Positions 25,094-41,757 of a stretch of DNA of 64,000 nt are shown here, one piece after another. A program made the translations under genes and the position numbers. The notes under the pieces were generated by a model. That model was not told where the DNA came from. It did no database searches and saw only the letters and a list, made by a program, of their open reading frames with translations. The stretch's first letter is position 1; each line of letters begins with the position of its first letter. The DNA is from Verrucomicrobiota bacterium (GTDB lineage Bacteria > Verrucomicrobiota > Verrucomicrobiia > Limisphaerales > UBA9464), in assembly GCA_017309115.1 (NCBI GenBank), contig JAFLEF010000001.1:120616-184615 (forward strand), given 5' to 3'.

Positions 25094-25097
25094 GGGA

Positions 25098-25103
25098 CCT
25101 CCC
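25098..25103 (-). promoter_or_regulatory. Strong ribosome binding site (GGGAGG) deciding the start at 25093
   Basis: GGGAGG on the minus strand, four bases before ATG 25093. It decides the start: the longer in-frame reading from 25162 would put 23 residues ahead of the signal peptide. Confidence 0.7.
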
Positions 25104-25205
25104 AAAGTTATTTGGACGACTTTTTTGTCAAACCTGCCCCATATGAAGGGGTCCCTCACCAAGCAGGTCGGCAGATCGAGAATGAGGAAGCAACTAGGAC
25201 GTAGC

Positions 25206-28200
25206 TCACTTTGCGAGCTGTCGGGGAAAGCGGTAAAGGGCGCTGTTCAGTCGCACCCACACGTTGTCTCCCGCAATCTGCAGGTGGTACACGGTGGTGT
25301 TGTTCATCAGGCAGCGGTGCACAACCGAACGGGTCGGTAGATCGAAGATGAGGAGGTAACAGGGGCCGCCAACCCACAGCCGGTCGCCGTCCAACGCCAG
25401 CGTCGTGACGGCGGCAAAGGGGAGGCCGTCGGCAGTGCCCAAGCGGTGCCGCTCACCGGTTTTGCGCGACACCATCGTCAAGGCGTGCTTGCGGTCAGGA
25501 TCGGCGTGATACGGCGCTTCGCCGGCCACGAGCCAGTCGGCCGAACTGACCAGCGTCTCGATATCTGGGTCGGCAACCGGGGGTGACGTGGCCGACCATT
25601 TGCCGGTACGGGAATCGAAGGCTTGCAGACCGATTCCCGCCACCGCGGCCACCATTTCATCGTCCCCCGTTCGAGCAAAGGCGCGCACCGGCCGGGAAGG
25701 TGGCCGTTGCCAGTCTGGTTCGGAACCGCGCCGGTCAAACTCCGGGCGCGGCTCGCGGGAATCCTCCAGCGGCGGAATGAAGGAGCGGATTCGCGTGTCC
25801 CCGAGGTTCATTTCCGAAACACCCCCAACTGAGCGACGCTCAGTTTGCTGATAGAGTTCGTAGCCGATCCACAAACGCGGACCGTCAACCCGGAGAGTGC
25901 GAACCTCGTCCAGCAGCAATCCATCCGCTTTGGTCCATCGCCGAACAGCGCGGGTGCGTTTGTCGAACCGGAATAAACCACGGTCGCTGCCGATCCAGAG
26001 CGAGTCAGCAGTCTGTTGGAGTGCCCTGGGAATCAGATCGGGCTCCAGAGCGAACTCGTTGGTGACCGAAGCGCCACCAGACAGGGGCACACTCCAAACG
26101 CGGTTGGCATTGACCAACCAAAGCTGCGGGCCGTCGGGCATAAACAGGAACGGTCGCGCTGGAAAAACAACCGCCGGCCCCAAGTCGAAGGTATTGGTCT
26201 TGGAATCGATCGGCTCGCCCAACTTCTCCTGGTTGTAGCGGAGGAGGGCGTCGCGCATCAGCCAAGAGGGATGACGCCCCCACGGCCCGCCGCTTTCCAT
26301 GGCCACCACCTCCTGCTCCACCCGTCGGCTGGCCGCCACGGCTTCCCGCGGCCGGTTGGCATAGGAATAGGAGAGCGCCACCCGCATCTGGAAGGCGGGC
26401 CTGAAATCGAAGTCCACACCGGCGTCCCGCGCCGCGAGCACGGTGTCCGCCATCTGGGCGGACAGAGCATTGAGCTTGTGATCGAAGGCCCAGCCAAAGC
26501 CGTCCCTGCTGAGCCGATTGAAATAATTCCGGGGAGCCAGCAGGCGGGTGGGGTCCTGGCGCACCGTTTGGAGCGAGGCTTCGAACCGGGTCAGGAACGG
26601 ATGGTTCGTGGCCGGCCAGAGCCGCAGAGTCAGGGTCAACAGATGCGGCTCCAATTCGGGAGCGGCGGCCAGCAACTGCGGCAGGAACGCCTCGAGCCGG
26701 GCCAATCGTTCCGCAGCCTGTTCCGGAGGGCCGGCAAGAAAGTCGCTGAGCACCGGGCTGTCGCTGTAGTGGCCGGACCGCTGGGCCTGATCCTTCCACA
26801 CCGCCATGGATTTCAGGGCGGCGGCCTCGCGTTCGGCCCAATCCAGCGGACCGCGGTTCACTTCCGGTGTCCGCCGCGAGGCAAACTCCCGACGTTGCCG
26901 GAGGCCCGCCTTGAAGGTTTCCGGTGCCCGGGCTTCCAGCTCGCGGAAGGTGGCAATGGCCCGTTCCGTTTCGCCGTAGGCTTCAAACGACGCACCAAGC
27001 GACTCCATGGCGGTCCGGGCAATCCGACCGTTCTTGTCGTCCAACAACTCCCGGTAGAGACCCCGCGCCTCATCCGGTCGGGCCACCGCTGGGTCCACCA
27101 GGCAACGGGCCAGAAACAGCTTGGCCAGGCCGTTTCCCGGATCCAGCAGGAGGACTGTTTCGAAGGATTGAATCGCGGCCTGCAGGTGCTCCCGGCGGTC
27201 GGCCAAATTCTGTTGGTTGGGATTCCACCGATTGGCCCACCAGTTGGCCCAGAGCCGGGATTCCAGACTGTCGTCGGTGAATCCCGCTCGCTCCATCCCT
27301 TTGGCTAACTGAGCCCGAATCTCCCCTTTTCGCGTCGCCGGCCGATCGGGTGGCGGAGCGCTCCGGAGCAACTCCAGCATCGCGTCCGCGGCGGCGGATT
27401 CGAGCGGGGAACCCCGCGGTGCCCGAAGATGGCGACGGTGCACGGCTCCACCAATCCGCGAGACGCGCAGATTCAATTCCACGTCGTCGCCCACGCTGTC
27501 CACGGGCTGCCAAAACCCGTCCACCAACCAAAACGCGCTTTGAATTCGAGGCGGGCTGGCACCCGCCTCGATCAGACCGGCCTGTTGGAGGCGGACCTCC
27601 TCCAGCAGCAGTGCGGTCAGTTCCCGTTCCAGTTGAACCAGGGACGTTCCCGCCAAGGCTCCGGCCAGATGCGACCGAAGGTTCCGCTCCAGATCGGCGA
27701 ATCGCGGACTCACACCGACATCCGCAAACCCGCCGAGAGCCACATACTCCGGCGCGCGAACGGAGGCGTTGGTGGCGCCCAGCGCCTGCCGGACCAAAGC
27801 GGCCAACGTGGCGGCGACTTCCACCGATCCTTCCGGACGTTCGGAAATCACGCTCAGATTGAGCAGAACTCCCGAGCCGGCATCCACGAGCCGAATCACG
27901 GCATTCGTGGTGCTGCTGCCCCGATAAGTCCCACCCAGCAGAAACCAATCGGCGCGCACCAGTTTTCCCAGGCGCAAGGCATCGGCAGGCTTCACGGCAC
28001 CAGCGGCCCCCAGCTCGATTTCAGACATCAGGCGAACCAATTCGCGGCGCTCGACCAGATTCAGGCCCGGCTCGGAAGACAACGTGGCGGTGAGCAGATC
28101 CGCCGCTTCGCCGTCCGACGACGCTGATCCCGTTCCCAGCGGGCCGATCGCGAGGCGAACGGGTCCGTCCCGGCGGACGGGAGCGATGGGAGGTTCGGGA

Positions 28201-28352
28201 ACATCACCGGTGATGCGGGCCACTTCATCGCCAAAGTCGGCGTGGAGTGGCTGCCGGGCCGTCCACCATTCCACACCGAGCCAGCCGCCGACGCCGGTCA
28301 CTAGAAGGACGATCAGAGCCATCAGCCGCTTAGGCTGGGAACTGGGCTTCAT
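25206..28352 (-). CDS. Large protein with two CsgG/FlgO-like domains, TPRs and a beta-propeller
   Basis: A 1048-residue protein with an N-terminal membrane segment (MALIVLLVTGVGGWLGVEWW) and no lipobox. Residues 65-190 hold a CsgG-like domain (LAIGPLG..., LVERRELVRLMSEIELGAAG, LGKLVRADWFLLGGTYRG). A second, more diverged copy follows at about 205-325 (FADLERNLRSHLAGAL, LERELTALLLEEVRLQQAGL, FWLVDGFWQP). TPR-type helices occupy about 380-480, and from about 700 onward there are propeller blades (LQQTADSLWIGSDRGLFRFDKRTRAVRRW, LDGDRLWVGGPCYLLIFD). It is the last clearly coupled gene of the operon, six bases after the Sel1 gene. CsgG itself is a lipoprotein pore for curli export; here the fold is anchored differently and fused to scaffolding modules. 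Function unknown. Confidence 0.72.
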   Translation of the reverse strand: MKPSSQPKRLMALIVLLVTGVGGWLGVEWWTARQPLHADFGDEVARITGDVPEPPIAPVRRDGPVRLAIGPLGTGSASSDGEAADLLTATLSSEPGLNLVERRELVRLMSEIELGAAGAVKPADALRLGKLVRADWFLLGGTYRGSSTTNAVIRLVDAGSGVLLNLSVISERPEGSVEVAATLAALVRQALGATNASVRAPEYVALGGFADVGVSPRFADLERNLRSHLAGALAGTSLVQLERELTALLLEEVRLQQAGLIEAGASPPRIQSAFWLVDGFWQPVDSVGDDVELNLRVSRIGGAVHRRHLRAPRGSPLESAAADAMLELLRSAPPPDRPATRKGEIRAQLAKGMERAGFTDDSLESRLWANWWANRWNPNQQNLADRREHLQAAIQSFETVLLLDPGNGLAKLFLARCLVDPAVARPDEARGLYRELLDDKNGRIARTAMESLGASFEAYGETERAIATFRELEARAPETFKAGLRQRREFASRRTPEVNRGPLDWAEREAAALKSMAVWKDQAQRSGHYSDSPVLSDFLAGPPEQAAERLARLEAFLPQLLAAAPELEPHLLTLTLRLWPATNHPFLTRFEASLQTVRQDPTRLLAPRNYFNRLSRDGFGWAFDHKLNALSAQMADTVLAARDAGVDFDFRPAFQMRVALSYSYANRPREAVAASRRVEQEVVAMESGGPWGRHPSWLMRDALLRYNQEKLGEPIDSKTNTFDLGPAVVFPARPFLFMPDGPQLWLVNANRVWSVPLSGGASVTNEFALEPDLIPRALQQTADSLWIGSDRGLFRFDKRTRAVRRWTKADGLLLDEVRTLRVDGPRLWIGYELYQQTERRSVGGVSEMNLGDTRIRSFIPPLEDSREPRPEFDRRGSEPDWQRPPSRPVRAFARTGDDEMVAAVAGIGLQAFDSRTGKWSATSPPVADPDIETLVSSADWLVAGEAPYHADPDRKHALTMVSRKTGERHRLGTADGLPFAAVTTLALDGDRLWVGGPCYLLIFDLPTRSVVHRCLMNNTTVYHLQIAGDNVWVRLNSALYRFPRQLAK

Positions 28353-28358
28353 ATAAAT

Positions 28359-29510
28359 TCAACGAGCGGGTGTCTTCTCCGCAGCTTCCGCGCGGCGATA
28401 CCAGCGGCGGGCTTCGTCTGGGTCGGGTTGACCGCCCACGCCTTGTTCCCACAACTGGCCCAAGCGTCGCATTGCCGGCGCATGGCCCGCCCGCGCGGCG
28501 GCCAGATACCACTCGATGGCTTTTTGGGGTCGGGCCGAAACCGAGGCGGTTCCGGCCCACAGCAGTTCGGCAATTTGGAAACGCACGGCAGGGTCCTTCA
28601 CGTCCTGCGGAGACTCCGGCAGTTGGCGAATCAGTTCCGCCACTTCATGACGTTCCGCTGACTTCAGCTCCCGAGTCAGTTTGGACAGACCAGATTCGTC
28701 CTTCACGAGATTGGGAGGAGGATTCTCCGGGCCGTCTGATCCCAGGATCCAGCCGAATTCCCGGATTTCGAGGTCGCGCAGGGCGGCGGGAAGCCACTCG
28801 CGCAGGGTCTTCTGTCGGGCCGCCGCCCGCCGCTCCCAGTCAGCGAGGTATTGAAGCGCATAGCCCGCGGCGGAATCACCATGTCGGGCAGCGGCGGAGA
28901 GCCATTTCCGGGCAGTGTCAGGATCGCAGTCCTGCATGAGTCCACTGCCCGGGCGCCAGCAGAGAAACAACAAGCCCAGGCGCCGCTCCAGCTCCGGCCG
29001 GTTCGGCGCCACGGGAAGCCAGGCGGCGAAGGCCCCTGCTCCGTCATTCGTTCCCAGGCCGCCATTCCAGAGCACATCACCGAGCCGAGTCGAAGCAAGG
29101 ACATGACCCTGGGCGGCGGCCTTCTCCCACCATTCGCGGGCCGTTTCAAAATCGCCCAGAATCTCCCCGTCGGTGTCGCGGGAGGCATCGGCGGCGAGGG
29201 CCCCCGCCGCATACTGCGCCACCGAATCTCCCTGCTCGGCGGCCCGTTCTACCCAGCGGCGGCTTTGGGCGGGATCAGCCGGCTCGGAGTGGGCCAAGCG
29301 CCAAGCGAGAGCCAGAGCCGCCGACGGTTTCGTGGGGGCCTGCTTTTCCAAAATGGCTGCCGGGGCGTTGGTCAAGATGCCAACCAAGGGCGTCAGAGTT
29401 CGACGGAGCACGCGGACCTCGGCGGGCACTTCGGCGGCGACGTCTTGGGTGCTGACCATTCGCAGCACCAGGATCAACGCAAGCAGACCAAAAGCGGTGA
29501 ACGGTTTCAT
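28359..29510 (-). CDS. Sel1-repeat protein
   Basis: A 383-residue protein starting at ATG 29508-29510, which overlaps the TGA of the preceding gene (ATGA). It has an N-terminal hydrophobic signal (FTAFGLLALILVLRM). Sel1-type helical repeats are visible: RRWVERAAEQGDSVAQYAAGALA, REWWEKAAAQGHVLASTRLGDVLWNG, RKWLSAAARHGDSAAGYALQYLA, then after an insert IEWYLAAARAGHAPAMRRLGQLWEQG and RRWYRRAEAAE. Sel1 repeats form alpha-solenoids that bind other proteins, so an adaptor role inside the envelope complex encoded by this operon is likely. An in-frame extension upstream to 29936 lies inside the preceding gene and is rejected. Confidence 0.87.
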   Translation of the reverse strand: MKPFTAFGLLALILVLRMVSTQDVAAEVPAEVRVLRRTLTPLVGILTNAPAAILEKQAPTKPSAALALAWRLAHSEPADPAQSRRWVERAAEQGDSVAQYAAGALAADASRDTDGEILGDFETAREWWEKAAAQGHVLASTRLGDVLWNGGLGTNDGAGAFAAWLPVAPNRPELERRLGLLFLCWRPGSGLMQDCDPDTARKWLSAAARHGDSAAGYALQYLADWERRAAARQKTLREWLPAALRDLEIREFGWILGSDGPENPPPNLVKDESGLSKLTRELKSAERHEVAELIRQLPESPQDVKDPAVRFQIAELLWAGTASVSARPQKAIEWYLAAARAGHAPAMRRLGQLWEQGVGGQPDPDEARRWYRRAEAAEKTPAR

Positions 29511-32500
29511 CGGACGGGGAGGGCGGCGGTGAAGAGGCTGCGGGGATGATCGCGGCGCAGAACGTCGGCCGCTTGTCGGCGGCGGGCCTCGTCCCCGCCA
29601 GAAGTGGCCAGCAGGAACAGGTCTTCTGCCGCCGCCGTGTCGGGATCCGTGCCCGCCAACAACGCCTGAACCGGCCGCGAATCCCCCTGGGCCCAAGCCC
29701 GGATGGCGCGCTGACGTCCGGTGAGTGACTGGAGGGCCTTGGCCAGTTCGGCTGGCGTTGGGTTGGGGGACTGCCACGCGGATTCGGGCACGGCGAGTAA
29801 GCGGCGGACGTCCACGGCATGGACTTGATCCGGTTCGCGATTGAAACCCTGGCGATCGCCGGTGACGGCCAGGATGCCGTCCGGACCCGCCGCCCAATGC
29901 TTGAGTGGACCGGGCAAGTCCGCCGCGGCGATCCAACGCCGGGTCGGAGCATGAAGCAGGGTCAGGCGCGTGGTCGGCAGTTTGCCAACCCGGTCCCGAT
30001 GGGTCGCCAGCCAGAGATAGTCCCCGACGAGCGCGAGGCCGACCACGGGATCATTGAGGCGCGAGCTGCCCGCCAAGACAGTTCCTTCCGGTGCGCGGTG
30101 AGTCAGCTTCAGACGAAGCGACTCCCGTTCCGACTCGGTGAATTCCGTGTCGAAGCCGGACGCATTGAAGCTCAGTCCGGGGCCTTCGCGGGTTTGCAGA
30201 TACGCCGGCAAGGGTTCGCCGACCTGCGTGATCGACCGAGGATCGCGCCACACCACCGGGTTACGGAGAGCCACCTCGGGCCAGAGGTTGGTACCCTCCG
30301 GGGTGAGGAGTCGGAGGCTGCCCTGATCGACGCACCAGGCGTTGGTGGTGGCGTCGAGTTGGAGCGGGGTGCCCCGGGGAAGCGGAAGGGGAATCCAGCG
30401 TCCCGATTGCCAAGCATGCCACGGCGGATTCAGCGCGTCGGGCAAGGCCTGCGCACCGCCCGGCGGGAGCGTCATGGCCTGGAAGCGGCGGACCCACACC
30501 TGGCCTGGCTGAAAGGTCAGGTTGACCTCGTTGCCCGGTCCGCGGCTGGGCAACTGCGGCACGAGCGACTCCCAGCGACGATCCTCGGGCAACCACCGAG
30601 AAACACCCTGACCCGAGACGAGCAGGTGTCCGGCGGCCGCATGCATTCCGAACACCGGACCCTTCAGGCCCTCAACTTCTGCTCGAGGCGTGTCCTTGCC
30701 GGAAGCGAGGCGCCAAATGTTGGTCGGAGTGAACCCCCAAAGTTCACCGCGGTGGCTAGTGATTCCAACCGTGGACTGAATCAAGGGATGACTGGGAATG
30801 AGCTCAAACTGACCCTTCCCCCGGGACCGGAGCAGCCGGCGAACATGTCCCGCCACAGGTTCCATCATCAGGCGGGGATCGGCCGCGCCCGGTTCCGAAA
30901 TCTCGGCGCTCACTTCCGCCAAGATCCATCGTTCATCCGGAGTCACCGGCGTCAGCCCCAGGATTGCGGCCCGGGTTGGCAACCGCAGCGTTCGCACGGC
31001 GTCGCTCAATGGAGCCGGCCCCAACTCGATCTCGCCGGCGTCCAAAGCCGGGCGGACGGCGAGCGAGTCCAGTTGACTGACGCGCGGCAGATGCAGACGC
31101 AGGCCGGATTGGGAGGGAGCCCGAGTCAGGGCCGGATTGGGCTTGGTCAGAACGGCCAGAACCGCGGTGTGCTGGCCGGCCCGTCCGGCAGACTCATAAA
31201 GACGTTCCAACTGGTTCTTGGTCTCGGCGGCTTGCTCCTGCCAGCGGTCACCGGCCTGGATCCGGAGTTCCGGAGCCTGGGTTTCGAACCAGCGGCACCA
31301 TCCGACGGCATCCGGACCGGCTCCATACACCAGGATTTCGTCGGCGCTGGCCAAGCGCAATTCCGCCAACTCGGGGTCACTGGCCGTTCGTTCCAGACGC
31401 ACCCGCAGTTCTGCCAAATCACGCGCCCACCACGTTTCGAGCACTCGCGAATCCAAGTCCGTAGGCCAACGGTCGAACGGGCCGAACCCCTGTCCGGAGG
31501 CGTAAGATCGCACCACCGCGTAGGCACTGTGGACGTAGTGCCACGCGACGGTTGGTGTCTCTCCGATGAAATCCGCCCGCGAAACCTCTTCCTCAATTTC
31601 ATCGTTCGCCCGGGTCTCAAATCCGTGGCGTCGGACAAATTCACCCCAGGCTTCCCGGCGCCAATACCGCCAGCGCAACGGGTGAACGGAGACCCGACCC
31701 ACCCAGGGAGCAAAGCGGGCGCGTAGCAATAGCTCCTGGGCCTCGACTCGGGCCGGATCCAGCCAGAGGGCATAACCCAGCAACGACAAGCCATCACGCC
31801 AAGCCGCCCGCGACCTTGCATCCTCGAGGCTCGACAGGGCGGCGAGTTTCTGGAGGGCCTCGCGGTGGAGGGCCGCGGCAGCCCTTCGCTCGAGCGGCTC
31901 GGAACCCTTCGGCTGAGGTTGGAGGCGGCCGATGATTTCCTCCCAGGCGGGCAAAGCATTGGTGGGAAACACACCGCTGGCTTCGGCGTTCCCCACTTCC
32001 AAAACCCCGGAGCGGGGCTGCCACACCAGAAAATCAGTGGGAGGGAAGTTGAAATTCGTCGCGTTACGGATCAGCCCCAGGGCTGCCAGACCGGACTCTT
32101 CGATCGTCGCCTCCCGGGCTTCGGGTCGGATGAACTGCCAACCCGACGGTTCCGGCCACGGTGGATTATGAAACCAAAAGACTCGGCGCAAGCCCGCCTG
32201 ACGCGTCTCCACCTGTTTGGCAGCCGCCAGGGCCTCCCGGACGCGGGCCGCAATTTCGCCCGCCAACGTGGCGCCGCCGGAGAGTCGGCTGCGGAGTGGA
32301 ACCGCGAGATTCAGGTTGGTTCGGAAGATCGTCTGATCCCGGGCGAGTTGGATCACTTCGAGGCGCAGCGGGCGACGGGTCTCCGCGGCCTCTCCCAGAT
32401 GAATAGCCACGGCCCACTCGGCTCCCTGGAGCGGGGTCTGTGCGGCGGGCGACGCGATTCCGGCCGATGCGAGCGCGCGTTCGCTCTCGATTCGGCCCAG

Positions 32501-32767
32501 ATCAGTGCGCTCGATCAGCGTGACGTCGGGCAACGCGCTCAGGTTCGCCACGATGATGTCCCCGAGATCGGCCGCTCCCCGCCAACTCCGGTAGGAATGG
32601 TCGTCGGTCGTGATCGGCAACACGGTCACCCGCGTCGGCTCGGCCCAAGCGTCCAGGCCTAACCCGAAGCCGAGAAACAGGAGCAACAGTCCCGATACGG
32701 TGCGACCGAGGTGGCCCCAGTTGAGCCGACTCCGATGGAAGCGAGAACTTCGCCGGATCGACTTCAT
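29507..32767 (-). CDS. Large secreted protein with N-terminal CsgG-like domain and propeller-like C-terminal half
   Basis: A 1086-residue protein with a signal peptide (VSGLLLLFLGFGLGLDAWA) and no lipobox Cys. Residues 45-195 are CsgG/FlgO-like (VTVLPITTDDHSY..., VTLIERTDLGRIESERALASAG, GAEWAVAIHLGEA). The middle (200-600) is mixed and helical with many W residues. The C-terminal half contains propeller-like strands (GELWGFTPTNIWRLASG, GVSRWLPEDRRWESLVP, GDYLWLATHRDRVGKL, GPDGILAVTGDRQGF). The ATG overlaps the stop of the upstream CsgG-like gene by four bases, and its own stop overlaps the Sel1 ATG. The CsgG-like part is similar in layout to the two neighbouring CsgG-like proteins, pointing to duplication inside the operon. 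Function unknown; an outer-membrane or periplasmic complex is inferred. Confidence 0.68.
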   Translation of the reverse strand: MKSIRRSSRFHRSRLNWGHLGRTVSGLLLLFLGFGLGLDAWAEPTRVTVLPITTDDHSYRSWRGAADLGDIIVANLSALPDVTLIERTDLGRIESERALASAGIASPAAQTPLQGAEWAVAIHLGEAAETRRPLRLEVIQLARDQTIFRTNLNLAVPLRSRLSGGATLAGEIAARVREALAAAKQVETRQAGLRRVFWFHNPPWPEPSGWQFIRPEAREATIEESGLAALGLIRNATNFNFPPTDFLVWQPRSGVLEVGNAEASGVFPTNALPAWEEIIGRLQPQPKGSEPLERRAAAALHREALQKLAALSSLEDARSRAAWRDGLSLLGYALWLDPARVEAQELLLRARFAPWVGRVSVHPLRWRYWRREAWGEFVRRHGFETRANDEIEEEVSRADFIGETPTVAWHYVHSAYAVVRSYASGQGFGPFDRWPTDLDSRVLETWWARDLAELRVRLERTASDPELAELRLASADEILVYGAGPDAVGWCRWFETQAPELRIQAGDRWQEQAAETKNQLERLYESAGRAGQHTAVLAVLTKPNPALTRAPSQSGLRLHLPRVSQLDSLAVRPALDAGEIELGPAPLSDAVRTLRLPTRAAILGLTPVTPDERWILAEVSAEISEPGAADPRLMMEPVAGHVRRLLRSRGKGQFELIPSHPLIQSTVGITSHRGELWGFTPTNIWRLASGKDTPRAEVEGLKGPVFGMHAAAGHLLVSGQGVSRWLPEDRRWESLVPQLPSRGPGNEVNLTFQPGQVWVRRFQAMTLPPGGAQALPDALNPPWHAWQSGRWIPLPLPRGTPLQLDATTNAWCVDQGSLRLLTPEGTNLWPEVALRNPVVWRDPRSITQVGEPLPAYLQTREGPGLSFNASGFDTEFTESERESLRLKLTHRAPEGTVLAGSSRLNDPVVGLALVGDYLWLATHRDRVGKLPTTRLTLLHAPTRRWIAAADLPGPLKHWAAGPDGILAVTGDRQGFNREPDQVHAVDVRRLLAVPESAWQSPNPTPAELAKALQSLTGRQRAIRAWAQGDSRPVQALLAGTDPDTAAAEDLFLLATSGGDEARRRQAADVLRRDHPRSLFTAALPVR

Positions 32768-33750
32768 TTCACCACTTGCGGAATGATCCGCTCCGCGAGT
32801 TCGGCCGCGGCTTCCTGAAGCGCCCGTTTGGCGGCAATCTGTTCGCTCACATCCACCGCGACGCTCATTTGGCGATCCGCGAGCAGCACTTTCCCAGTCG
32901 CCCGATCGCGAACCTTGATCTCCACCCGCGCCCGGCAGGACACGAGACCCGCCCGACGCAGACCCACTTCGCTAAAAGCTTCGCCGGTGATCTCCACCTC
33001 GGCGGCTTGGGCAGACTGGTCATCGGCCAGAGCACAGCCGACTTCCTTGAACAGCAGCGCCAGTTCGGTCTGGGCGGCGGGATCCACGGCGGGGGTGCCA
33101 AAATGGACTTCAGGAATCTTCACGGAAACACTGGGGCGGCGGTCCGTCTTGAGCGCGGCCTTGAGCGTCGTCACGCGATCGGCGCGGGTGACGACTTTCG
33201 CGACGAGCGTGTCGGCCTTGGTGGTGACGGTGGCGGCGATCTTGGCGGCGAGTTCCTCCGCCGGCCCGGTGACCGGAGCATCCTTGCCGGCCTTGGCGAC
33301 CTCGCCATACACGCGGCTGGTCTCGGTGCCGATGACCTTCGCGACGAGCAGCAGTTCGTTGCCCGCCCGAAAGGCCCGGCCGGTGACGAGCACCTTCGCC
33401 CCGGTGATCTGGCCGACTTTGACGGCGGTCGCGGGATCAGCGAGACCACCAAGGCCCAAGGACTGTTCGGCGAGCAGGCGGTCGAGTTCCGCCCGCTCAA
33501 CGGTCCAGATCGCCGGATTGCCGGAAAGAAAAGTAGAAAGCAGCGTGGAGACCTCCTTGCCAAAGTCGCGGCCCAAGTCTTCGCGCGCCTCGAAGTCAAA
33601 CACGGCCACGGTCAGCGGGGTGGGGTTAGGCGCGCTCACGTCGGCGGCGGATCCGGAAAACAATAGTACCCCCAGCAACACCGCACTCCAGCGCCGGGCC
33701 GGGCGGCTGGTGAGGGAGGGGAACGGGCGTGAATCAGGAGGCGACTTCAT
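32764..33750 (-). CDS. CsgG/FlgO-family envelope protein
   Basis: A 328-residue exported protein, the simplest of three CsgG-like members in this operon. Signal peptide: WSAVLLGVLLFSGSAA. The first domain (about 45-180) carries the family pattern: LTVAVFDFEAREDLGRDFG, then WTVERAELDRLLAEQSLGLGG and VGQITGAKVLVTGRAF. The C-terminal 120 residues (about 210-328) form another alpha/beta block (EVEITGEAFSEVGLRRAGL, VEIKVRDRATGKVLLADRQM). In CsgG the N-terminal Cys is acylated; no Cys is present near the cleavage site here, so this is not a lipoprotein. Start and stop both overlap neighbours by ATGA, showing translational coupling with the anti-sigma-like gene upstream and the large fusion downstream. 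Confidence 0.82.
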   Translation of the reverse strand: MKSPPDSRPFPSLTSRPARRWSAVLLGVLLFSGSAADVSAPNPTPLTVAVFDFEAREDLGRDFGKEVSTLLSTFLSGNPAIWTVERAELDRLLAEQSLGLGGLADPATAVKVGQITGAKVLVTGRAFRAGNELLLVAKVIGTETSRVYGEVAKAGKDAPVTGPAEELAAKIAATVTTKADTLVAKVVTRADRVTTLKAALKTDRRPSVSVKIPEVHFGTPAVDPAAQTELALLFKEVGCALADDQSAQAAEVEITGEAFSEVGLRRAGLVSCRARVEIKVRDRATGKVLLADRQMSVAVDVSEQIAAKRALQEAAAELAERIIPQVVK

Positions 33751-34343
33751 AGTGTTATTTCCAGCAAGCGGGCGTTGAGGCGCAAAGAACTGTTCGCCGA
33801 CGGCCAGACCGCATCTTCGTCGGTCACAATCACTCCGCCGCGGGAATCCGTCAGTACTTCGAGCTGACGATTGCCGAGATGGACAGACTGGCCACTGAAC
33901 GTCAGAGCGGTGCGGCAGCCATCGGCGGCGCAGCGGCGCAGCACCACCGGCGGCGAAACCGGCAGGTTGGGTTGATCGGCCAGCACCACTTGCGGGCCGT
34001 CCGGACCCAGGATCACAGCGCTCACCTGATGCGGAAAGAGCGCGGTGACTTGGCGCCAGATTTCTTCATAGCTTTGCAGTTCGGACGCGGTGAATTCGGT
34101 CGGCTGGGGCGGACGGGCTGGTCGCCACAGCAGCAACAGTCCCACCGCGATCGCCGCAGCTCCGAGGGCCAGCCAGGGGAGCGGACGCCACACGTGCGAA
34201 CGCTGCGGAGACGCATCGGAACGAGTTCGGGACTCCCGCGCCAACCGGCGTTGGACAGTCTCGGGAAAGGAGTCCCAGTAACTCGCGGGCCGAGTCGGCG
34301 GCCGGGTGGAGCGAAGCAGGCGGTCGAGTTGCTCGTTGTTCAT
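33747..34343 (-). CDS. Membrane anti-sigma-factor-like protein
   Basis: A 198-residue protein from ATG 34343, overlapping the sigma factor stop (ATGA). It has a cytoplasmic N-terminal segment of about 50 residues (NEQLDRLLRSTRPP, SYWDSFPETVQRRLARE), one transmembrane helix (WLALGAAAIAVGLLLLW) and a periplasmic domain of about 110 residues. This is the layout of an ECF anti-sigma factor. No zinc-binding HxxxCxxC motif is present, so it is not of the ZAS type. Position directly after the sigma gene and the topology support the call; the family match itself is weak. It would release the sigma factor in response to an envelope signal. Confidence 0.72.
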   Translation of the reverse strand: MNNEQLDRLLRSTRPPTRPASYWDSFPETVQRRLARESRTRSDASPQRSHVWRPLPWLALGAAAIAVGLLLLWRPARPPQPTEFTASELQSYEEIWRQVTALFPHQVSAVILGPDGPQVVLADQPNLPVSPPVVLRRCAADGCRTALTFSGQSVHLGNRQLEVLTDSRGGVIVTDEDAVWPSANSSLRLNARLLEITL

Positions 34344-34939
34344 GCGGAATCCTCCGGGGAATCGGAGTCCAGGTCCGAAAGCCATTTTCGAAGCTGACGG
34401 CGCGCCAACCAGACCCGCCACGAAACCGTCGTTTCCGCGCAGTCCAATTGCCGCGCGGCCTGGGCGTGGTTGAGTCCTTCAAACACGGTGAGCACCACGG
34501 CCGCCCGGTCCGCCGGCTTGAGCCGCTGGAGGGCTTCGTTGACCCGACGCGAGCGTTCCGCCTCCCGATCGGCCAGATCATAGCCGGAGGGGGGAGACAT
34601 TTGTGACTCCTGCTCCAGGCCCGCGTGCGCGTGTCGGGACCGTTCCGTCCGTTCCCGCCAGTTGAGACAGAGATTGAGCGCGATCCGGTGAACCCAGGTG
34701 CCGAAACTGGAGTCACCGCGAAACGTGCCGAGACGTTGCCACGCCTTCACGAAGGTGTCCTGGGCGAGGTCGGCAGCATCCTCGGCCGAGCCGGTCATCC
34801 GATAGGCCAGTGCGTGAATCATGTTCTGATGTTCGCGGACCAATTCGCCAAACGCCGCTTCGTCGCCCGCCCGGGCCAAGGCCACCCGGCGATCAGGCAG
34901 GCCGTCGGGCGCGGCAGTCGGGTGAGAGGCGGACAGCAT
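34340..34939 (-). CDS. ECF RNA polymerase sigma factor
   Basis: A 199-residue sigma-70 family ECF factor. Region 2 is seen at FGELVREHQNMIHALAYRM and DAADLAQDTFVKAWQRL, followed by FGTWVHRIALNLCLNWRER. Region 4 is seen at LKPADRAAVVLTVFEGLNHAQAARQLDCAETTVSWRVWLARRQL. The start is placed at ATG 34939; a TTG at 34990 would add 17 residues before region 2. It lies downstream of the 2172-aa secreted protein and is coupled to a membrane anti-sigma-like gene. It probably controls this envelope operon (autoregulation is inferred, since no promoter motif could be fixed) and other surface genes. Confidence 0.94.
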   Translation of the reverse strand: MLSASHPTAAPDGLPDRRVALARAGDEAAFGELVREHQNMIHALAYRMTGSAEDAADLAQDTFVKAWQRLGTFRGDSSFGTWVHRIALNLCLNWRERTERSRHAHAGLEQESQMSPPSGYDLADREAERSRRVNEALQRLKPADRAAVVLTVFEGLNHAQAARQLDCAETTVSWRVWLARRQLRKWLSDLDSDSPEDSA

Positions 34940-35017
34940 TCGTTGTTCTACCGGGATTGGACCGGCAGAGAGGCGAAATCCTTGGAACAATTTTTCGAGA
35001 GCTGTCGAAGCCCGAGC

Positions 35018-38000
35018 TCAATCCGGCTGGACGCCCACTCGGTAGATCAGGGTGTCCGCGCCGGCCGGGATCGGAACCAACAGTTCTATGGTCGTCCCGT
35101 CGCCCGAGACCGGCGCACCGACCGGCTCCCAGGGCGCGCCCAGTCGCGCGGCGCCTTCGAGCTGATACCGACGACCCAGAGCACCCTCGAATCGCAACTG
35201 AAGTCCACCGTCCCGCAGCACCACCTCGCGCAATTTCAGGACGCTGTCCGCTCGCAAGTGGTCGGTGCCCGCCACGAATTCGTCGTAGGTGCTCATGCCG
35301 TCCTGGTCGGGATCCTCCATGGCATCGGCCGCGACGTTGGGATTGAGTTGATTCAACAATTCCCAGATGTCCCCGAGTCCGTCCCCGTCGAAATCCCGGT
35401 CAATCGGCGTCGGCAAGTCGGCCAACCGAGTCAGCACCAAAGCCCGTTCGCTACGGAAGGCGAGACCATCGACTCCCCAGGCCACGCCTGAGGTCGGATC
35501 GACGGTTCCTAGAAATCCGCCCAGGCGGTTGGTGACCGTAGGCACCGAACCCTCCACGTCGGCCACCTGGACACTCCACGCGCCAGTTCTGTTCCCGATG
35601 AACGCCACCCTTCGGGCCGCCGGCAAGGGAATCGGACTGCCCGACACGGCGAGATCCGGGCTGACGGCCAAAGTCAGCGCCTCGTTGACCCGTCCATCGT
35701 CCAAATAGGTCTTCAAGCCGAGATGGCGCAGCGAACCGGTAACGGCCTCGCGCGGACTCGTTCCGAGCAAAGTCCCTTCGAGATCGACCCGCTCGATCGG
35801 ATGACGCCGCTGGAAGTCCTCATAGGATTCCCGCGCCACAACGACCGTGCCATCCGGGGCGAAGTTGACCGCAGTAATGGACCGGGTGGTTTCCCGGGAG
35901 TGAATCGGCTTCACGCCAGTGGGGCCGATCGCCAACACCTGCAGTTCAACGGCACAGGCGGCCACCTGCGAGTTGAACGGATGAGCCACCAGATGACGAA
36001 TCGGCTGTTCGCCCGGCAGCGACCGGACCTCCTGCAGCAGCACGCCATCAGAAAGTCGGAACCGCCGGATGGTTCGCTCGGCGTCATAGGCGACCCACAA
36101 GCTTTGTCCGTCCGCACTCACGGCCAACGCACCCGGGGCGGGACCAAACCGTGACTCCGGATTGATGCGGCCCAACGCCGGATCGACCTCCACCACTCCA
36201 TCAGCCGCAGCCAGGAACAACCGTCGACCGGCCGGATCGGCCGCCAGAGCCGACTGAAACACATTCAGGCTGACGGACTGGCCGAAGCCAGGAATGGACC
36301 CCACCGACACATATCGGGTGACGAATTCGTTGCCGGGCAGCGGATCCGGGGCACTGGAGTAGGCGGAGGCCGTAGCGGGAAACCGGCCCATGTCGCCGGC
36401 CCGGAAACGGAATCGGACTTCCACGGTTTCTCCCGGAGCGAGTTGGTCCACCTGTCCGCGAAGACCGGTGTAGTAGTCGTGAGTGACCGTTCCACGGCTG
36501 GCTTCCAACAGAAGATAGTTACCCAGCCACGCCAGACTGTAGTGGACCCGGGGAGCGAGGCCCGGACCGGCGTTGGTGATCGTCAGTCGAAACTCGGAAT
36601 CCTCCCGAATGGAGATCGCCGGCGTCGTCAGCGTCAGGTGGGTTTGAATGTCCGCCGGAGCGGGCGCCGAGGGAATGGCCGAGGTGCGAAGGATGACCAC
36701 GCGATTGGGCGGTGACGCATTCTCGTGGGCGCGAAAGGCCACGCGATCACCACCGCACGACACGGCCGGACTCGCCGCCGGAAACTCCGCGCCGAAGGGG
36801 ATTTCCTCGATGAGCCGCCCGGTCTCGAGATCGAACACCTTCATCGACAGCAGGGCGGAGGTCTGGAAACCACCATTGTCGAAGAGGATCAGCCGGTTCT
36901 GATCGGGAAGCGGAATCACCGGTCCCAGAACATTCACGTTGTACGTCGTCACCCGCCCGAGATTGGGCCAGTCCTCGGCCCGCCCGCTGTTGCTGTAGAT
37001 TCGTTGCCCCACGATTCGCAGCTCGTTACCGCCGAGCACTCCGTTCGTCGAGGAAAGGGTCTTCAACCCGGTGGCGCTGAGTTGATGACGAGCGAGCCGG
37101 TAATCGAGAAATCCGGTGAAGGTGACCAGTTCATCTCCGGAAGGGGCGAGTTCCAGCATCGGTCCTTCGGCCACTTCGTCCGGCAAGCGCACACCGTCCT
37201 GAAAGGCCACCGTGCGATAGTAGACCGCGTCCTCGGAATTTTCGAAGTACCGGACGCTCCACGTGGCGACCAACCGCTCGGTTTCACCCGGAACGACCGC
37301 CAGATCGCGAACCCGGTGAAAGGCCTGGGGCGTGTTGGTGGCATAGTCGAACAGAGGAAGCGTTCGCCCCCAGGTCTCGGTGGGGAGATCAAAACGTCGG
37401 ATCACCGCCTCGCCATCGACCGCCACAAAAAGGGATTTCCCATCGGCGGACCGCACTAGACGTCCGGGCAGCGGACCGGTCGGGAACTCACCCGTGATCA
37501 GACCTGTCTCGGGATTGATCCGCACCAACCGGCCCGGCTGACCTTGGGCCGCATTGGCAGACACCGTGGCCCAAAGGGCATCCCGTTCCGGATCGTAGCA
37601 AAGATCGATCGCCGCGAGATCGATTGCCTGACGCGAGTCGGGCCGCAGGTCGAAGCGAATCACGGGTTGGGGCGCCACCGTGTTGTTGGTTGGAACCGAA
37701 TCGCGTTGCAGCAGGGAAACCCGCGCCGAGAGCGGATGGATTCCCGCCAGGTTGGGCCGTAAGCGCAGCCGAAGCGTGGTCGACGCTCCCGCCGGAAGGG
37801 GTGGCAGGCTGGCCGTCCATCCCCCGAAAACACTGGTTCCACTCCCGCCGGGCACTTCCGCCTCCACCCACGTCCAGCCCAGCGGCAGGGTACCGTCAAG
37901 CGTGACGACCGTCGCGGCGGCCGGACCGGCATTGGTGACGGTGAGCATCCAATCGATCTCCCGGCCCACCTGGATGTCCGTCGGCAACACACTGCTGATC

Positions 38001-41000
38001 TGCAGGTCGGTGGCGGCGCCCGGATCAACGAAGGCGGAATCGACCAGGTACAGAGTTGAATCCGCCCGGAACGCCAGTCCGCGTTCTCCCCAGCGCACGA
38101 GGCGCGTGACCCCCAACTCGGGATTCACGTTGGGAAAGGTGATCGTCTCGGTGGCTGTTCCGAGGGACAAGCTGGCCCGGGTGAGATGCACCAGGGAGTC
38201 GGCGCTCCGCAGGAAGAATCCCTGGCCCTTGGCCGGTTCGACGGTGAGCACGGAGTGACCCAGGCCGGCAATTCCGGGAAGGACCGACAGCGTCGCCGCG
38301 TCCAGGACGTTGCCCGCCACCGAATACAGCCGTCCTTCCGCGAACGCCCAGGTGAGCGAAGGCACTTCGGGTCCAGCGCGGCGCAGTTCGATTCCCTGGT
38401 CGGTAATGGCGTACTCACTCAACTGCGGTTGGACGCCGCTGGTGAACGACGGGATGATGACATACAGCCGGTCATTGTTCCCGGGGGTCATTCCCATCCA
38501 CATCAGATTGCCCGGGCTGATGGCCATCGGTTGCCGGACTCCATTTACGTAAAGCGCAATCTCGTTCCCGGCGTTCATCTGGGCGCGGTAGACCACCACG
38601 GAGTCATTTCGGCCAGGACGGGCAGCCAGCTGAACTGGCCAATGACTGTCCAGAGAGAACGAGGCCGAGATTGAGAACGAGGTCAGGTCCACTCGTTGCA
38701 CCCGGCCTTCCCCATACGATCCAACCCAGAGCACGGTGCCGTCGTCCGACAAGGCGAGGGCCGACGGATCCGCAGCGACGGACAGTGAGCGTTCAATCTC
38801 CCCGGTGTTCGGATTCACCACTACCAATTCATTGGGATGTGTCGCATCCAGGGCCGCGACCACCGCCAGCAACCGACCCCAGCCGGGATGCAGCACAAGA
38901 TCCGTCACCTCCAAATCCAGCGCCCGCACGGTTTCATCCCACACTTCGGACCACTTCACAGCGGTTTGGAAGTCCACCGCAGTGGCGGTGACGGTGACCA
39001 AGGAGGTTCCGCGGAATGGCGGGTTGGTCGCCGGTTCCAGGGAGAATACCGCGTTGGTGGATCCGGCCGGAATTCGTACCGAAGCGGGAACGGACAGAAT
39101 TCCCGAAGTGTTCAACTCGAGTCGAACCTCCAAGTCCGACGGAAGAATCCCGGACAGCGCGACCATGCCCTGAACCGGCGCCTCCCCGCGAATCCGCCCG
39201 GGAACGGTCAGACGAAGCTGCCGGTCCTCATTGTCGACGGCGAGCAGGGACGCCGAGCCCGCAGTCCAGTTGCCAGTCCGCGCCGTGATCTGGACCGCCA
39301 GATTGCCGTCGATCACCGGGTCGTTGACGGCGCGAATCGGAAACGGCGCCTGCGTTTTCCCCGGCGGAATCCAGACACCGGCGGGCAGCAGGAGTTGTCC
39401 GGACGGATCAGTCGTCAGTTCCACCCACACGGCCACTTCGGGCGCCCGATCCACCTGGACGATCCCCTCCCCGTCCGCTCCGGCTTCCGTCAGTTGGTTG
39501 GGCACCACGAGGGAAAGCCGGGCCGTCTCGTTGTCCCCCAGCGACAAGGTTCCCTGGGTCCGGGCAAATCCCGGAGCCCGCAGACGAATCGTAACGATCT
39601 GCCGACCCTGCAGCGCGGAATCCTCCAGCACCGACAGCGGCAACGACACCTGCGTTGCCCCCGCCGGGAACACCACGGTCGCCGGCAACGGCAGACGGGC
39701 CGGCCAGCTCGATTCGAGTTGGATCACCAGATTGGTGGCAACGGCCGACGGCAGGCGAAGGGTGGCCGTCGCGCGCTCGCCTTCATTCAGTTCCGCCGGC
39801 AATTCCAGGGCAATGACAGGCGAAGGTGCGAGATCCACCAACCCGCTCCACCCAACGCGTCCCTGCCGATCATCGGCCAGGAACAGCAGGTTGGTGCCGG
39901 CTGGTTCCGGTTCGACGGTTCCTGCCCAACGGCCATCGTTGAACCGGTCCGTCGCCGCCGGAAACATTTCGCGAACCGTGACTCCCGGAAGGAACAGCGG
40001 CCCACCATACGGATTTACGCGTCCGAAGGAGTCGGCGCACACCAGCCAGTCCGAGGCCCGCTGACGGTCGCGACTGCCAACGCGTTGGTAGACATCACCG
40101 CCCGAAGTCGCTCGCGGCGCGGGCGAGCCAATCCACTCCGCGAGGGGCACCGCCACCGGTTCCGCAATCGAAACCGGGAAGGCCTGATCCGCCGCGAAGA
40201 AATCCACAATCGCGCCGTTGGCATCCTGGACCAGGACGGCCAGCACGCGATTGGCGTTGTTGAAATTCCAGGCCAGGGCCTGCCCGGTGAAGAACGTGGA
40301 GCCTCCTCCCGGGGCCGGACCGCCCCGACGCAACGTGATGACCTTGCCCGCCGCGACCGACGAACCCACCGGAAAAACAAAGAGGGTCCGCGGCTTGGGC
40401 CACGTGGTCGAGTCGTACAAAGAGACCTGCCAGCCTGCGATATCCAGGGGTGCCGTGGTGCCATTGAGGAATTCCACACCCACATTGGGCGACACTTCAC
40501 TGATCACCAGGGAGGCCGGTCGGGAATCGGTCGAGACCGTCGCGAGTTGGACCGTGTTGGAGTAACCACCTGCCGGGAAACCCGAGGCGCTCAACGCTCC
40601 CAATTCCACCGTCACCGGCTGGAACGCCTGCATCGATTCTTCCGGAAGCGTCCATCGCAAGGCCGCCGGCGGACCGTTGGTCCCAGTGCGAAAGGACCAG
40701 ACCGGACTGGCTCGTGTTCCGTCCGGATCCGTCACCTGAACCTGCCAGCGGTAAAGGGTGTCCGGCTGCAACGCGGGCAAAGCCAGACTGGGATCTCGGG
40801 TGGTCCCCAGGAGGTCCGTAGCGACGAGCGTGGCATTGGTGCTCAGGAGAACGTCGTAGGTCGTATTCGGCGGAGCGGACACTTCCAGGCGCACCTCATC
40901 GAGGTACACGGTGACGGGCCCAACATTGTCCGACTCGATGAACGCGATGCGAATGGTCCGGCCCGCAAACGCACCCAGGTTGGCGCTGCGTCGCACCCAC

Positions 41001-41536
41001 GGAGTCCGCCTGGGATCGCTCGGAACCAACTGATGCAATATGGCCAGGGGAAAGCCGTCCGGGGTCTGAACTTCGACGCGGAACGTTTGGTCGGGAGGCG
41101 TATGGGGAACGTTGCTCTGGATCTGATCCACCCAACTGAGCACGGCACCGGTCGCCTCGGGCGGCAGCGTCACCACCTGCGATAGCCCCACAGGTCCCGG
41201 GATCTGACCAAAAAGGAATCCGGCGGCAAAGTTACCGGAGAACACCCGGGTTGGGGACACCTTGGCGTCGACCGGGCGGAGATCCTTGCCGGCCGGAACA
41301 TCCCGATCCCAACCGGTGAAGTCCCCCGATTCAAAGCCCCCATTAACCACCAACGAATCCCCCCAACCCACCCACGTCAACCGCTCCAACGCCGGCGAGA
41401 GGGCCACGCGATTGGTGAGAGGACCAGGCCCTTCCGGTGGGGGCAACGCGGCGAGGGTCTTCTGAAGGACTCCGAGAGAAATCGCGAGGATCCAGAACAC
41501 CTTCGCCAGATCTGAGAGGAAGTTGGCAGGCTGCAT
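35018..41536 (-). CDS. Giant secreted multidomain protein (lamin-tail, Calx-beta-like, YVTN propellers, DUF11)
   Basis: A 2172-residue protein with a signal peptide (VFWILAISLGVLQKTLA). Approximate order: a carbohydrate-binding-like beta sandwich (60-230, NGGFESGDFTGWDRD), a fibronectin-III-like unit (230-290), a lamin-tail-like domain (339-412, EFLNGTTAPLDIAGWQVSLYD), Calx-beta-like repeats (560-780), a YVTN-type propeller (880-1095, VVNPNTGEIERSLSVAADPSAL), a DUF11 domain (1175-1282), a second propeller (1295-1610), a second DUF11-like domain (1630-1740), a third propeller (1750-2045), a calcium-binding type-3 repeat (DFDGDGLGDIWE, DPDQDGMSTYDEF) and a terminal RRYQLEGA..W module. It is the first gene of the sigma/CsgG-like operon and the best candidate for the cargo or surface structure. 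No enzyme domain was seen. Confidence 0.83.
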   Translation of the reverse strand: MQPANFLSDLAKVFWILAISLGVLQKTLAALPPPEGPGPLTNRVALSPALERLTWVGWGDSLVVNGGFESGDFTGWDRDVPAGKDLRPVDAKVSPTRVFSGNFAAGFLFGQIPGPVGLSQVVTLPPEATGAVLSWVDQIQSNVPHTPPDQTFRVEVQTPDGFPLAILHQLVPSDPRRTPWVRRSANLGAFAGRTIRIAFIESDNVGPVTVYLDEVRLEVSAPPNTTYDVLLSTNATLVATDLLGTTRDPSLALPALQPDTLYRWQVQVTDPDGTRASPVWSFRTGTNGPPAALRWTLPEESMQAFQPVTVELGALSASGFPAGGYSNTVQLATVSTDSRPASLVISEVSPNVGVEFLNGTTAPLDIAGWQVSLYDSTTWPKPRTLFVFPVGSSVAAGKVITLRRGGPAPGGGSTFFTGQALAWNFNNANRVLAVLVQDANGAIVDFFAADQAFPVSIAEPVAVPLAEWIGSPAPRATSGGDVYQRVGSRDRQRASDWLVCADSFGRVNPYGGPLFLPGVTVREMFPAATDRFNDGRWAGTVEPEPAGTNLLFLADDRQGRVGWSGLVDLAPSPVIALELPAELNEGERATATLRLPSAVATNLVIQLESSWPARLPLPATVVFPAGATQVSLPLSVLEDSALQGRQIVTIRLRAPGFARTQGTLSLGDNETARLSLVVPNQLTEAGADGEGIVQVDRAPEVAVWVELTTDPSGQLLLPAGVWIPPGKTQAPFPIRAVNDPVIDGNLAVQITARTGNWTAGSASLLAVDNEDRQLRLTVPGRIRGEAPVQGMVALSGILPSDLEVRLELNTSGILSVPASVRIPAGSTNAVFSLEPATNPPFRGTSLVTVTATAVDFQTAVKWSEVWDETVRALDLEVTDLVLHPGWGRLLAVVAALDATHPNELVVVNPNTGEIERSLSVAADPSALALSDDGTVLWVGSYGEGRVQRVDLTSFSISASFSLDSHWPVQLAARPGRNDSVVVYRAQMNAGNEIALYVNGVRQPMAISPGNLMWMGMTPGNNDRLYVIIPSFTSGVQPQLSEYAITDQGIELRRAGPEVPSLTWAFAEGRLYSVAGNVLDAATLSVLPGIAGLGHSVLTVEPAKGQGFFLRSADSLVHLTRASLSLGTATETITFPNVNPELGVTRLVRWGERGLAFRADSTLYLVDSAFVDPGAATDLQISSVLPTDIQVGREIDWMLTVTNAGPAAATVVTLDGTLPLGWTWVEAEVPGGSGTSVFGGWTASLPPLPAGASTTLRLRLRPNLAGIHPLSARVSLLQRDSVPTNNTVAPQPVIRFDLRPDSRQAIDLAAIDLCYDPERDALWATVSANAAQGQPGRLVRINPETGLITGEFPTGPLPGRLVRSADGKSLFVAVDGEAVIRRFDLPTETWGRTLPLFDYATNTPQAFHRVRDLAVVPGETERLVATWSVRYFENSEDAVYYRTVAFQDGVRLPDEVAEGPMLELAPSGDELVTFTGFLDYRLARHQLSATGLKTLSSTNGVLGGNELRIVGQRIYSNSGRAEDWPNLGRVTTYNVNVLGPVIPLPDQNRLILFDNGGFQTSALLSMKVFDLETGRLIEEIPFGAEFPAASPAVSCGGDRVAFRAHENASPPNRVVILRTSAIPSAPAPADIQTHLTLTTPAISIREDSEFRLTITNAGPGLAPRVHYSLAWLGNYLLLEASRGTVTHDYYTGLRGQVDQLAPGETVEVRFRFRAGDMGRFPATASAYSSAPDPLPGNEFVTRYVSVGSIPGFGQSVSLNVFQSALAADPAGRRLFLAAADGVVEVDPALGRINPESRFGPAPGALAVSADGQSLWVAYDAERTIRRFRLSDGVLLQEVRSLPGEQPIRHLVAHPFNSQVAACAVELQVLAIGPTGVKPIHSRETTRSITAVNFAPDGTVVVARESYEDFQRRHPIERVDLEGTLLGTSPREAVTGSLRHLGLKTYLDDGRVNEALTLAVSPDLAVSGSPIPLPAARRVAFIGNRTGAWSVQVADVEGSVPTVTNRLGGFLGTVDPTSGVAWGVDGLAFRSERALVLTRLADLPTPIDRDFDGDGLGDIWELLNQLNPNVAADAMEDPDQDGMSTYDEFVAGTDHLRADSVLKLREVVLRDGGLQLRFEGALGRRYQLEGAARLGAPWEPVGAPVSGDGTTIELLVPIPAGADTLIYRVGVQPD

Positions 41537-41757
41537 CTAGGCTGCCTACCTGCGTCTGCCCCGAACCGCAAGGAACAAGGGCTGGATTGCGGATGATCAG
41601 GATCGGGCACGCTTCGAGCCGGTGAAGGAGTCTCCAAAATACTAACAAAAATAATCGTCCTTGGCATTGCACCTGCCTAGCTTTGACCCACATCCGGAGC
41701 GCCAACTTGCCGAGTCTTCTCGGCCCGCTCCGTCAGTATCTCAACCTCTCGTTCGAC

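Follow-up and report, generated by a model that had tools for sequence, protein, structure and literature searches.

RpoE and RseA are an example of an extracytoplasmic function (ECF) sigma factor and a membrane anti-sigma factor that regulate their own operon. Among envelope proteins, CsgG is the export channel of curli, FlgT is a flagellar ring protein, and TolB is encoded in the tol-pal locus and binds Pal and TolA; TolB, LpoB, PelC and FlgT are structural or activator parts. Bacteria of the Planctomycetes-Verrucomicrobia-Chlamydiae (PVC) group have unusual envelopes and, to our knowledge, the output is known for only a few of their ECF sigma systems. PVC membrane-coat-like proteins are characterized by an N-terminal beta-propeller followed by a C-terminal alpha-solenoid (PMC2799638). 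Here we analyzed a 64,000-nucleotide stretch (the window) of a Verrucomicrobiota genome (assembly GCA_017309115.1, contig JAFLEF010000001.1, positions 120,616 to 184,615 of the forward strand), which contains a cluster of genes for an ECF sigma factor, a likely anti-sigma factor and three CsgG-like proteins. All coordinates are window positions and the cluster genes all lie on the minus strand.

Comparison across genomes shows that the sigma and anti-sigma genes head an apparent operon with a conserved promoter before the sigma gene, and the operon is predicted to encode export-type alpha/beta, solenoid, propeller and Sel1 proteins. The cluster resembles other ECF sigma/anti-sigma pairs in that the sigma factor has regions 2 and 4, a one-helix anti-sigma factor is encoded directly downstream and a conserved promoter precedes the sigma gene. 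Unlike RpoE-RseA-type pairs, it combines an AAGGAWT/BGTC promoter, an SGQ-type C-terminal domain and an operon of CsgG/TolB-type and propeller proteins. We see an even chance that the cluster is one case of a transenvelope module conserved in PVC bacteria, which regulates itself and serves for sensing or as a scaffold in the periplasm, rather than an export system. The sigma/anti-sigma principle is already known. Among the titles listed by searches of the open literature none concerned the cluster, and within those searches neither its gene set nor its promoter sequence nor its alpha/beta-solenoid-propeller architecture appears to have been described. The pathway becomes testable, since in four phyla a sigma factor can now be named along with its likely anti-sigma factor, a promoter and the genes conserved with them.

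Apparent transcription unit and predicted promoter of the sigma gene

Seven minus-strand open reading frames (ORFs) were found where a preliminary description had placed them, and its account of seven same-strand genes with five tight junctions was confirmed. Six of the genes are tightly coupled and encode, in order, the ECF sigma factor, the anti-sigma factor, csgg1 (328 amino acids, aa), csgg2 (1086 aa), a Sel1-repeat protein and csgg3 (1048 aa). ATGA overlaps occur at four junctions (sigma/anti-sigma, anti-sigma/csgg1, csgg1/csgg2 and csgg2/Sel1), and the Sel1 and csgg3 genes are separated by a gap of 6 base pairs (bp). GC content at codon position 3 is 0.71-0.77 across the seven ORFs. The sigma factor (34340..34939) matches Pfam PF04542 (Sigma70_r2, 71.3 bits) and PF08281 (Sigma70_r4_2, 37.7 bits), both above cut-off, and is up to 62% identical to its cluster relatives. 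Its start is probably ATG 34939, giving 199 aa, rather than TTG 34990, because the conserved promoter sits within the TTG extension. The 198-aa protein encoded behind it (33747..34343) has, by hydropathy, a short cytoplasmic part, a single hydrophobic segment (~53-76) and a C-terminal domain, in which a 30-member family alignment revealed a conserved SGQ-type motif; this one-helix protein is likely the anti-sigma factor.

A predicted bipartite promoter, CMAAGGAWT-N13-BGTC, is conserved ahead of the sigma gene. The window copy, CCAAGGATTTCGCCTCTCTGCCGGTCC (34959..34985, minus strand; -35 AAGGATT, -10 GGTC), matches the pattern exactly with 15 bases between AAGGA and GGTC, and lies 19 bp ahead of ATG 34939 and 32 bp past the stop codon of an upstream gene for a 2172-aa protein. 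When regions were anchored at the sigma model start, the consensus was present in 37/52 sigma loci, compared with a shuffle mean of 0.14 (maximum 2 in 300) and a single site on the reverse strand, and 35 of the 37 motif-bearing loci had the 15-base AAGGA-to-BGTC spacing. When spaced word pairs ahead of the sigma genes were counted without supervision, AAGGA-15-TGTC came out on top with 14 loci of at most 54, versus 3-5 loci for the best pair in three shuffles. The first form of the pattern had been found in 26/54 loci (shuffle mean 0.49, maximum 4), and many of its misses came from extended ORF starts. The patterns were written once regions upstream of sigma genes had been inspected, and these regions overlap the sets in which the patterns were counted.

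Over 1.47 Mb of non-redundant loci, 68 strict sites were counted versus 9.3 expected. They were assigned to sigma genes (34), to c1, a recurring gene for a protein of ~280 aa with a signal-like N-terminus (7), to csgg1 (6), to c3 giants (2) and to the 1086-type family, the 1048-type family and the anti-sigma gene (1 each), leaving 16 unassigned. Two of the six csgg1-assigned sites fall inside c1 and may be due to chance, and some of the unassigned ones are sigma sites missed through an extended ORF start, as in L064 and L084. Beyond the regions in which it was discovered, the motif lies ahead of c1 in seven loci, and in L158 and L093 it precedes giant genes or fragments of them. A variant, CMAAGAW...GTCT, was found in 8 of the 15 sigma loci that do not carry the strict pattern (shuffle mean 0.016, maximum 1 of 500), having been chosen after looking at those 15 loci; the other seven contain neither form. 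The variant-bearing loci belong to Lentisphaerota, Planctomycetota, Kiritimatiellota and unclassified bins. In one of them (L153) the site is a long way ahead of the start of the sigma gene. Over all 93 non-redundant loci the variant has 25 sites, most without a gene start behind them.

Individual promoter copies were also noted at other positions. At L164:3962 and L158:4361, a CsgG-fusion giant located upstream of sigma has its own promoter copy, in variant form in L164, and therefore giants can be separate regulon members. At L028:6759-9970 (minus strand), the promoter is followed by a frame of ~26 codons whose first residues resemble the N-terminus of the sigma factor and which runs into the start of a 1048-type gene; this frame looks like the relic of a deleted sigma gene, and a similar remnant may lie ~300 bp before csgg1 in L021. 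In the window genome, only the window site and one other were located 14-20 bp before the ATG of a long ORF. The latter (L177; G000:C18:16655-16681, minus strand) is a promoter-like site 14 bp before the ATG of a membrane-protein-like ORF, which is a possible second target of the sigma factor.

Recurrence of the cluster in other genomes

Four phyla, Verrucomicrobiota, Lentisphaerota, Kiritimatiellota and Planctomycetota, have versions of the cluster. The scan of named genomes kept 80 loci, from these four phyla plus some unclassified or oddly labelled bins, and the fetched loci were reduced to 93 non-redundant ones, 86 of them with csgg1. Within the order of the window genome, csgg1 had matches at E 0.001 or better in 68/321 genomes, the window genome counted, and 45 of these were strong (below 1e-25). 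The distribution is patchy, because the four other genomes of the window genus gave no csgg1 match at E 0.001. A sigma gene was detected on the same strand within 9 kb upstream of csgg1 in 37/54 non-redundant loci that extend 7 kb or more upstream, and a CsgG-fusion giant was encoded on the csgg1 strand in 39/43 loci with both flanks. The gene order itself recurs widely, and synteny, which the preliminary description had proposed to examine, holds; L063, for example, has sigma, anti-sigma, c1, csgg1, 1086-type, Sel1 and 1048-type genes, which is the window order with c1 added. Strong anti-sigma matches were found in 34 of the 321 genomes of the order and 33 of the 34 also have a strong csgg1 match, in a count that ignores kinship. 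The csgg1 tree (52 rows) tracks phyla, with 4 label changes versus 8.7 after shuffling and 4 unlabelled rows uncounted.

In 45/74 loci with enough sequence, c1 is located upstream of csgg1 at a distance of no more than 2.5 kb. A search of seven genomes found it in G298 and G155 and in none of the other five, namely the window genome and four csgg1-bearing relatives. Its product gave no Pfam match above cut-off (two members), no NCBIfam match at E 0.01 (one member) and a best PDB match of E 0.17; inspected by eye, the sequence may have an Ig-like part and, behind it, an alpha/beta part.

In several loci csgg1 is repeated in tandem. Arrays of csgg1 paralogues lie behind one sigma/anti-sigma pair in L072:2945-9393 (six copies) and L069:1122-4934 (four copies), and such arrays suggest that the products form hetero-oligomers. 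In the Rhodopirellula loci L152 and L157, csgg1 is followed by a giant gene and no sigma gene was detected upstream, with only ~3 kb upstream covered in L157. The cluster was also seen in a bin labelled Woeseiaceae (L155), and the bins labelled 'Proteobacteria' (L103) and 'Akkermansia muciniphila' (L117) contain closely related csgg1 copies. Some labels are therefore probably wrong, and transfer may lie behind the copies in such bins.

Protein architecture and proposed mechanism

Pfam CsgG (PF03783, cut-off 20.8 bits) matches csgg1 at 35.2 bits and csgg3 at 23.4 bits, and these two were the CsgG matches reported in the window genome. In the 1086-aa csgg2 (29507..32767), a hydrophobic N-terminus and N-terminal domains of the CsgG type are joined to a large C-terminal part; the protein gave no Pfam match at E 0.1. 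In profile-profile comparisons with its 12-member family, the N-terminus aligned to the 328-aa family (E 8e-11) and to the 1048-aa family (E 2e-32), and therefore the preliminary claim of three CsgG-like proteins stands. The csgg1 protein (32764..33750) starts with a signal-like N-terminus, behind which come two alpha/beta domains of the CsgG/TolB-N type (43-178 and 187-328). A fold search with its predicted model matched domain 1 to TolB-N and FlgT and domain 2 to CsgG, so the expected likeness of the N-terminal domains to CsgG and FlgT holds at the level of the model. Fold searches likened the alpha/beta domains of the cluster to TolB, LpoB, PelC and FlgT. Unlike FlgT, csgg1 has two alpha/beta domains and stands in a sigma/anti-sigma context.

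The csgg3 protein (25206..28352) starts with a membrane or signal helix and is predicted to consist of two CsgG-type domains (65-192 and 203-331), a tetratricopeptide repeat (TPR) solenoid (~341-711) and a single beta-propeller (~727-1043), with which the chain ends. The fold search with its model was dominated by propellers, WD40 proteins first, and barely probed the other domains; the assignment of the N-terminal CsgG domains rests on Pfam, profile-profile comparison and predicted secondary structure. TolB joins an N-terminal alpha/beta domain and a C-terminal propeller in one chain; csgg3 contains both, but with another alpha/beta domain and an extended TPR solenoid between them, and its operon, unlike that of TolB, is sigma-linked. 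By sequence the 1048-type propeller family matches sensor propellers, with E 5e-31 to the hybrid two-component sensor 4a2l and similarity to the sensors BT4663 and BT4673, and TolB was not among the 57 matches listed. With the cluster, the CsgG/TolB-N/LpoB/FlgT fold group comes to include solenoid-propeller fusions. The 1499-aa CsgG-fusion giant at L080:4126-8625 ends in several EF-hand motifs, which suggests that one branch of the giants binds calcium.

The Sel1-repeat protein (28359..29510; 383 aa from ATG 29510) has a hydrophobic N-terminus and matches PF08238 at 78.1 bits. Its matches to AlgK (38.3 bits, cut-off 700), MerG (34.6, 350), ExoR (22.1, 450) and others were nowhere near the cut-offs and were not used. 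No enzyme or transporter family scored above cut-off in the cluster proteins scanned with Pfam and NCBIfam.

In the self-regulating module that we favor, the sigma factor would drive its own promoter, and the TolB-N/CsgG-type, solenoid, propeller and Sel1 proteins would form a scaffold in the periplasm or facing the outer membrane. The propellers and repeats might bind envelope or glycan ligands, with csgg1 as a hub, and the periplasmic domain of the anti-sigma factor could read the state of this complex. Perturbation of the envelope would then free the sigma factor, leading to transcription of the operon and rebuilding of the scaffold. A more specific version, which we put forward tentatively, is a heteromeric ring or scaffold of tandem TolB/CsgG-type proteins and alpha/beta-solenoid-propeller giants, whose assembly state would be read directly by the SGQ-domain anti-sigma factor and which would be renewed by its own sigma factor through the AAGGAWT-N13-BGTC promoter; this would amount to an undescribed PVC-wide class of transenvelope signalling.

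Several observations weigh against a module of this kind. No sigma gene was detected upstream of csgg1 in 17/54 loci, and 12/45 genomes with strong csgg1 matches had no strong anti-sigma match (the converse being 33/45), so the csgg1/giant set can occur without the sigma/anti-sigma pair. The core gene set is not fixed, because c1, present in 45/74 loci, has no match in the window genome, and the Sel1 gene was found in only 11/86 csgg1 loci. No Pfam anti-sigma domain was detected in the 198-aa protein, and its match to the NCBI anti-sigma model NF052375 is weak (24.9 bits), far below the curated cut-off of 100. The window genome contains 15 hits to the promoter pattern versus 8 to the reversed control, only about twice as many, a margin that decides neither for nor against a wider regulon. 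The signal, and any contact of the anti-sigma factor with operon proteins, are inferred.

The main rival is that the operon is pure output: an unrelated signal would free the sigma factor, and the proteins would be envelope-bracing effectors, scaffolds of the TolB or LpoB kind placed between the membranes and the wall, with no feedback on the anti-sigma factor. This possibility, which we take seriously while doubting it, fits the position of the genes behind the sigma promoter, the resemblance of the domains to TolB, LpoB, PelC and FlgT, and the csgg1/giant sets without a detected sigma gene. The co-occurrence of csgg1 in 33/34 genomes with a strong anti-sigma match argues against it, as does the sensor-type propeller, which suggests a sensing part, and neither point is decisive. 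We regard it as quite improbable that the giants are glycan receptors for nutrient or polysaccharide sensing, coupled to a sigma factor and otherwise like hybrid two-component sensors. The shared propeller profile with BT4663 and BT4673 would be in keeping with that role; unlike those sensors, whose periplasmic propellers precede a membrane helix and a histidine kinase, csgg3 has one propeller, a CsgG-type N-terminus and no kinase domain match. Propeller folds are in addition generic, as the lead of WD40 proteins in the fold search illustrates, and no carbohydrate-active enzyme occurs among the labelled recurring families, an annotation that excludes unlabelled flanking genes. It is very improbable that the giants give internal membranes their shape, the role proposed for the membrane-coat proteins of PVC bacteria: although csgg3 joins a solenoid and a propeller in one chain and the hosts are PVC bacteria, its order (alpha/beta, solenoid, propeller) is the reverse of that in the published definition (PMC2799638), its N-terminus is of the export type, and CsgG-type domains follow there.

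The preliminary description had read the locus as an ECF-controlled envelope operon for export, assembly or surface organization, with the 2172-aa protein as possible cargo; the envelope operon stands, export through a CsgG-like pore is not supported, and the proteins may form an assembly or surface-organizing complex. An outer-membrane pore or export channel would be consistent with the CsgG superfamily domains, whose alpha/beta fold is supported by Pfam and the csgg1 model, and with the hydrophobic N-termini, yet we consider it unlikely. As noted earlier, csgg1, csgg2 and csgg3 have no lipobox: no Cys occurs within the first 45 residues of any of them, and a crude lipobox-like pattern was present in only 5/107 csgg1-family ORFs. 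Unlike CsgG, csgg1 has two domains in tandem and its predicted model has no membrane hairpins; strands 120-129/132-141/147-155 and 252-266/269-282/288-300 are joined by loops of 2-5 residues at the positions where CsgG has its membrane hairpins. The noted absence of CsgE, CsgF and a curli subunit was borne out by searches of the 95.3%-complete window genome, which gave 0 matches to CsgE, CsgF and curlin with a positive E. coli control for each. Curli export was rejected on these three grounds, and the cluster is unlikely to encode a curli-type pore. The proposed cargo, in turn, is encoded upstream of the promoter and was not found at other clusters among the matches listed.

The 2172-aa protein and flanking genes

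The gene for the 2172-aa protein lies on the same strand upstream of the operon and is probably not part of its transcription unit, because the promoter lies between it and the sigma ATG, within a gap of 78 bp; its earlier inclusion in the operon is not upheld. Pfam identified a lamin-tail domain and two DUF11 stretches in the protein. It has 36 matches in its own genome, counting itself, and most of them cover stretches of other long ORFs. No BLAST hit (E 1e-4) was shown for it among 571 ORFs from 48 loci, a set in which overlapping ORFs were filtered out and the best two hits per ORF were kept. Relatives of parts of the protein occurred in 19/19 csgg1 genomes tested. Among the matches listed in these genomes none lay within 10 kb of csgg1, and only G011:C107 shares a contig with csgg1, at a distance of ~37 kb. 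With its position upstream of the promoter, no listed match beside csgg1 elsewhere and its generic relatives, its role as cargo is unsupported, and on these comparisons we regard it as a large secreted protein of a kind common in the lineage. The operon is flanked by more large or secreted-looking proteins of 2462 aa (43532-50920), 531 aa (41683-43278) and 678 aa (23126-25162), and by eye these three and the 2172-aa protein have in common a short segment of the YxL...W...YR type.

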